Shown here in pieces: positions 14,794 through 15,894 of a stretch of 61,380 nt of DNA (position 1 is the stretch's first letter; every line of letters begins with the position of its first letter). The translations under genes and the position numbers were made by a program. The stretch is from Gemmatimonadota bacterium (GTDB taxonomy: Bacteria; Gemmatimonadota; Gemmatimonadetes; Longimicrobiales; Gaopeijiaceae), in the NCBI GenBank assembly GCA_027623325.1, contig JAQBXY010000021.1:1-61380 (forward strand), given 5' to 3'. Below the pieces are notes generated by a model that saw only the letters and a list, made by a program, of their open reading frames with translations, did no database searches and had not been told where the DNA came from.

Positions 14794-15894
14794 TCATCGC
14801 GTGGCGCCGTAGATCTCGGTCTGCGGAAAGGTCAACGAGAAGCCGTACCAGCGGGTGAAGACTTGGAGTGGCCGATCGCCTCGCACGCGGTTGTCCGAGC
14901 GATCGTACAGTAGGCTGCTAGCCACGTACGACCCGTCGGACAACCGCAGCACGTCGTCATCCCATTGCGGCGTGTCCCCGTCGACATAGACGGCTGCCAG
15001 TACGAAGGTCTTCGGGTCGAGGTAAATGAGCACGCGTTTGCCGTCGAAGGTATCGACGAGGGCGCGACCCTCTTCGCGGACGACGTCGTGCGGGTAGTAC
15101 CGTGCCCCTGCGTCCGACCACACCCCGATCCCGATGTCCATCGTGGGACGTCGATCGTCTTCCTGTTTGACCGTGGAGCTGAACATGCCATTCAGTCGGC
15201 CACGGATCCCCGCCAGCAGCCCTTCGACCTTCATCTGGTCGTCGGTCCGAATCGCTTGTGTCGACAGAGCGACCATCGCGTCCGGATCCGTCTCGAGCAC
15301 CTGTTCGACGGTCGTCTGACGCAGACTCGACACCGTCAGCGAAGTCCCGACGAGCGGGCCATACACGGCTCGCCCGGTCATATGATCCCAGTAGGTGCCG
15401 GTCTCCTCGTCCTTCATTAGGAAGAGCCCGTCGTACAAACCGTGTTCGGAGAAGAGGTGAACGTCGCCTTCGATGCGTGGAGCCATCCTGACCCCTGAAT
15501 TACAGATCACTCAGAAGGTGACCATCCACGGTTCTCCCGCCATGTCACCCTGCGCAACGTGGTGATACGACATCTGACTCGAAACCAACGCGAGTGTCTG
15601 TCCACCCGCCTCGAAGACGATGACCGGCGTATCGTCGGCAACCTCACGGGCCCGACGCACGGCTCGAAGCGGCCGCCATTCCGGGTCGCGAAGCGGTACG
15701 AAGTTCGGTTCGGCCCAAAAGAGCGCCCGCTCGGTGTCGAAGCCCTCCGCGACTGGCATGGAAGGATCGACCGGAACCTGCGTGAAGCGCTCCGTTCGCG
15801 CCTGCCCCTCGACGCCGCTGGCCGCTGCGACCAGTATCGCGAGGGCCAGCGTCGTGCCCGCGGTCCTGCCGATGGGTAGGGGATCTCGAATCAA
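14794..15894 (-). CDS. DUF3179 protein with in-frame UGA at a signature Cys (candidate selenoprotein)
   Basis: One continuous frame of 366 codons, interrupted only by TGA at codon 128 (15511-15513). Start is TTG at 15894, preceded by CGGGAG, and followed by a signal peptide ending about V-E-G-Q-A. Upstream of the TGA is the DUF3179 segment S-Y-H-H-V-A-Q-G-D-M-A-G-E-P-W-M-V-T-F. Downstream is V-I-C-N-S-G-V, then Y-D-G-L-F and T-G-T-Y-W-D-H-M-T-G-R-A-V-Y-G-P-L-V-G-T. Family members normally have V-T-Y/F-C-x-x-C-N/G-S-G, so the TGA replaces the first Cys and would give U128-x-x-C131. A stem-loop follows (15479-15495). The alternative is a recent nonsense mutation of TGC or TGT. The protein is predicted to be exported; its function is unknown. 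Confidence 0.72.
15479..15495 (-). promoter_or_regulatory. Candidate bacterial SECIS stem-loop
   Basis: On the minus strand, GGGGUC (15495-15490) pairs fully with GGCUCC (15484-15479), 6 bp with two G-U pairs, around the loop AGGAU. The loop starts 21 bases after the UGA and has G as its second base. As I recall the published bacterial SECIS model, it needs a loop of 3-14 bases, a stem of 4-16 bp, a G in the first two loop positions and a spacing of 16-37 bases; all are met. Such short hairpins can arise by chance. Confidence 0.5.

Follow-up and report, generated by a model that had tools for sequence, protein, structure and literature searches.

A predicted selenocysteine-only branch of the DUF3179 selenoprotein family in Gemmatimonadota

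DUF3179 (UxxC/T) appears among the selenoprotein families in reviews from 2022 and 2026 (PMC9312934, PMC13188914), and the earlier of these credits the DUF3179 selenoprotein to Zhang and Gladyshev 2007, from an Olavius algarvensis symbiont (PMC9312934). The DNA analyzed here is a 61,380-nucleotide stretch of a Gemmatimonadota contig, referred to as the window. Its original prediction, that an in-frame UGA of a DUF3179 gene is read as selenocysteine (Sec), was made in the belief that no DUF3179 selenoprotein had been described, which was wrong, as both reviews list one. The published protein and the product of the window gene belong to the same Pfam family (PF11376), and both place Sec first in the UxxC motif. 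The window subfamily, for its part, comes from Gemmatimonadota, and all of the members found carry Sec. Codon 128 of the window gene, a UGA, is almost certainly decoded as Sec, and the reading put forward originally is supported by the Sec machinery of the genome, a conserved TGA column and a covarying stem. The features are collected in Table 1.

Table 1 Coordinates and properties of the DUF3179 locus in the window
Feature	Position	Strand	Description
DUF3179 selenoprotein CDS (predicted)	14794..15894	(-)	TTG start, 366 residues, terminal TGA
Predicted N-terminal signal peptide (about 33 residues)	15796..15894	(-)	hydrophobic core LALAILVAAASG, then EGQA
Predicted Rieske-type beta-barrel with U-x-x-C hairpin	15307..15603	(-)	model pLDDT 89; Rieske ferredoxin match
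His111-His112	15559..15564	(-)	invariant (H80, H81 of the subfamily alignment); by strand pairing opposite Sec128
UGA predicted to be read as Sec, residue 128, first position of U-x-x-C	15511..15513	(-)	TGA in 36/36 distinct subfamily genes
Cys131, putative resolving/second residue of U-x-x-C	15502..15504	(-)	invariant in the subfamily alignment
Bacterial SECIS (predicted), 7-bp stem GGGGUCA/UGGCUCC, loop GGA	15479..15495	(-)	16-32 nt after UGA
Putative second Rieske-like domain	14797..15153	(-)	deduced from the duplicated halves of the canonical family

The frame from 15894 to 14794 on the reverse strand had been described as interrupted by nothing but a TGA at codon 128, and this holds; apart from the terminal TGA it is the single in-frame stop, and the start and end codons are also as described. 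The Pfam DUF3179 domain spans residues 78-296 of the read-through product with an E value of 5.9e-26 and a score of 92 bits, above the curated cut-off of 27. Because this match extends over both sides of the TGA, family similarity crosses the codon without a break, as had been claimed. The dN/dS ratios, about 0.06 to 0.30, stay below 0.31 both upstream and downstream of the TGA, which is indicative of purifying selection on either side. A PF11376 search of the source genome (3.35 Mb in 60 contigs, 100% complete, 3.8% contaminated) returned only one gene, with one TGA inside, and no NCBIfam model matches the subfamily protein. Standard gene callers would cut the genes of this subfamily in two at the UGA. 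The N terminus reads by eye as a signal peptide, implying export of the protein, and subfamily homologues begin with similar signals that end in AQ.

A profile of the subfamily was run against 121 genomes of the family and 395 of the phylum Gemmatimonadota. Exactly one TGA was present in each near-full-length member (above 300 bits), and these searches found no full-length member that lacks a TGA. We extracted 36 distinct genes, which belong to many genera and to several families and all have TGA at the identical codon of the motif [VA]-[TSA]-F-U-x-x-C-N; the extraction rule included the motif, while the preceding profile searches made no demand for TGA. In a profile comparison, the alignment of the subfamily to canonical DUF3179 spans about 300 columns, and U falls on the invariant first Cys. 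The motif V-T-Y/F-C-x-x-C that had been given for DUF3179 proteins is right in outline, but the last position, equivalent to Cys131, is mostly Cys or Thr in the canonical proteins. The alternation of TGA and Cys codons suggested as a check on the original prediction is seen between DUF3179 subfamilies and not within that of the window, in which TGA occupies the column in every gene. A single-sequence pattern scan of genome contigs gave one contig, that of a Longimicrobiales MAG with a 60%-identical copy, a result that does not show absence elsewhere. One genome holds a tandem pair of Sec gene copies (L063, G139:C23).

The machinery that Sec decoding calls for, named beforehand as the thing to look for in the same genome, is complete: selA (459 bits), selB (324 bits), selD (382 bits) and a tRNA-Sec with the anticodon UCA (71 bits) were all found. 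The selD gene (L083, G000:C8:257912-258832:-) encodes a selenoprotein in its own right: its in-frame UGA lies in the motif GAG-U-ACK, where SelD selenoproteins are known to carry Sec, and the gene thus serves as an internal positive control. In the stretches examined, TGA terminates 46 of 79 long ORFs. As it is the commonest stop codon of long ORFs, UGA is not reassigned genome-wide. A tRNA-Sec is present in 27 of 30 carriers of the subfamily gene, and in all 16 of those that are near-complete (completeness of 90% or more and little contamination). For selB the count is 21 of 22 carriers versus 260 of 373 other genomes of the phylum sample (Fisher P 0.005, shared ancestry ignored); G261, the sole carrier without selB, does have tRNA-Sec.

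The stem-loop originally placed 16-32 bases after the UGA, with six base pairs and the loop AGGAU, is found at those positions; the same structure counts as seven base pairs when an A-U closing pair is included. It agrees with the published bSECIS rules, namely a stem of 4-16 bp, a loop of 3-9 nt with a G in its first two positions, and a loop 16-37 nt after the UGA (PMC13188914). Taken alone, the window stem is weak evidence and not significant. Among 22,651 codons of long ORFs in the window, 22% are followed by a stem that obeys these rules with 6 bp or more and 9.6% by one with 7 bp or more, although only 0.16% reproduce the exact 7-bp register by chance, and the fold z-score of the region in this single sequence is -0.8. 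Comparison of the 36 genes is far more telling. Almost all of them have the 7-bp stem in the same place, its start 16 nt past the UGA, with two exceptions in pairing, one an internal mismatch and the other an unpaired closing base. Pairing is kept in 250 of 252 cells, and four of the seven pairs have changed on both sides in a compensatory manner. When codon swaps were confined to sequences that share the amino acid concerned, none of 2000 such synonymous-codon shuffles reached the observed pairing. The first loop positions retain G across the subfamily (AGGAU, GGUCU, AGUUU, AGUAU and similar). The published rules and, above all, the comparison across genes support the SECIS assignment proposed at the outset. 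In the proposed mechanism, this stem-loop would direct Sec insertion, codon 128 would be decoded by SelB with Sec-tRNA, and the full product would be an exported selenoprotein.

Some bacteria have tRNAs with the anticodon UCA that insert Cys. The UGA might accordingly be read as another residue, Cys or Trp, through a UGA-reading tRNA, or be passed by leaky readthrough, and the Cys found at this position in homologues fits such a reading. We consider it very improbable, as the bacterial tRNA-Sec, SelA, SelB and SelD are all present, the stem is conserved and covaries and is of the kind that SelB needs, and selD of the same genome uses UGA at its Sec site.

Even less can be said for a point mutation or sequencing error, regarded originally as the main rival, by which a Cys codon became TGA and the gene a pseudogene. 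TGA does differ from TGC and TGT by one base only, and a related genome of the same genus carries a degenerate copy (L043, G003:C53) without the whole Sec-containing core, which suggests that some copies of the subfamily gene are decaying. This explanation is refuted, and is left with next to no probability, because the TGA is kept in 36 of 36 genes. In a maximum-likelihood tree that includes canonical DUF3179 proteins these genes form one clade with support of 100/100 and no Cys member inside it. The subfamily itself therefore offers no exchange of Cys and Sec, a point against Sec decoding. The spread of the same TGA over many genera and several families, the purifying selection downstream of it and the covarying stem also speak against a chance mutation. 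Equally negligible is the notion that the UGA is a true stop which ends a functional 127-residue protein ahead of an ORF with its own GTG start: a GTG directly follows the TGA (15510), where the mechanical ORF listing puts a 238-aa ORF, but the cut would split one beta-hairpin and one Pfam domain, and while many homologues have GTG right behind the TGA, others have GCG, CCC or ATC, so no start is conserved.

The same tree contains two Sec lineages outside the clade of 36 genes. One comprises L070, L071 and L072, membrane-anchored proteins with N-terminal membrane segments and the motif AT[YF]-U-TLCHTG (ATYUTLCHTG), in whose genes a strong stem, CCACACC-GGTCT-GGTGTGG, lies shortly 3' of the UGA. 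The other is a single canonical-looking DUF3179 protein, L080 (G067:C368), with VTW-U-PLCG (VTWUPLCG), which is likely a third DUF3179 Sec lineage.

An AlphaFold2 model of the subfamily protein was obtained with 34 subfamily sequences (pLDDT 89, pTM 0.87). A sequence search of the PDB with the subfamily gave no match, nor did Foldseek with the model against the PDB at an E value of 0.001. On realignment of the model, Rieske ferredoxins rank first, with a Z score of 6.6 (2.5 A for 91 residues, within positions 67-165 of the model). In a model of a canonical Cys-type DUF3179 protein (pLDDT 84), the second half aligns with Rieske proteins at Z 8.4 and 2.4 A over 92 residues. Nearly all top structural matches are Rieske proteins (Z 6.6 and 8.4 for the best), but with Foldseek E values for Rieske chains above 0.01. 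By profile, one half of canonical DUF3179 matches the other (E 6e-17); the same comparison of the subfamily halves yielded no match (E 0.26). We hypothesize that DUF3179 is probably a duplicated, tandem Rieske-type barrel, where Z scores of this size may mean only a common arrangement. An uncharacterised giant-virus protein (BFVD A0A1V0SD44, Indivirus ILV1) also matches the predicted fold, with a Foldseek E value of 2e-8.

Across the subfamily, Cys or Sec is invariant at U128 and C131 alone. The first His of the pair His111-His112 aligns with the invariant H89 of canonical DUF3179, and both stand 17 residues before U or Cys. Strands 82-87 and 90-97 of the model hold His111-His112 and U128 and form one hairpin. 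From these strand ranges, the two histidines should face Sec128. Sec128 would then sit in Sec-x-x-Cys at the turn of the beta-hairpin, beside the invariant histidines. It may attack the substrate, and Cys131 would resolve the intermediate as a selenenyl-sulfide. On the motif and the predicted structure, we modestly favor a periplasmic selenol/thiol redox protein. The neighborhoods of 15 loci were compared and offered no conserved gene neighbor as a hint to the substrate.

A different function, which would leave Sec decoding unaffected, is that Sec, Cys and His bind a metal in a Rieske fold with a changed metal site, and do not perform thiol chemistry. The predicted Rieske-type fold is consistent with this, as is the position of the invariant His-His and the Sec-x-x-Cys opposite each other in the hairpin. 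By the aligned ranges, however, UxxC lies in an early hairpin away from the usual cluster loops, and since Thr is allowed at the second position in canonical DUF3179, the Cys pair is not required. We regard metal binding as the main alternative to the redox function preferred here, unlikely though still deserving of some weight. A broader scenario, slightly less likely than not, is that the tandem Rieske-type domains of DUF3179 lost their iron-sulfur cluster and gained a redox or metal center of His and Cys-x-x-Cys(Thr) in the hairpin, with one exported Gemmatimonadota branch becoming obligately selenium-based.

With Rieske [2Fe-2S] proteins, the subfamily domain and the second half of canonical DUF3179 may, by their models, have the fold in common. 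Unlike Rieske [2Fe-2S] proteins, however, the subfamily shows no recognizable CxH...CxxH cluster ligands, and a Pfam Rieske match to the subfamily protein was absent even at an E value of 10. Canonical Cys-type DUF3179 proteins are closer relatives, with a full-length profile match of 99.8% probability to the subfamily and the same spacing from the invariant His to Cys or Sec. Yet the window protein is distant from them, at 92 versus 338 bits to PF11376; they carry Cys-x-x-Cys/Thr where the subfamily has Sec-x-x-Cys, and the N-terminal region and several motifs also differ. A literature search on selenoproteins of Gemmatimonadetes or Gemmatimonadota, and on DUF3179 together with Rieske, returned no title that describes the subfamily or the fold. 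The all-Sec subfamily, the two further Sec lineages and the prediction of a tandem Rieske-type DUF3179 appear to be new. The predicted fold with its invariant His, Sec and Cys center provides a first testable active site for this DUF. With Sec in all the members found and Cys in none, this branch lends itself naturally to the question of what selenium can do and sulfur cannot. The window gene is thus well supported as a new branch of an already known selenoprotein family, and it adds a phylum-wide, all-Sec branch to a family that is otherwise a table entry in the reviews.
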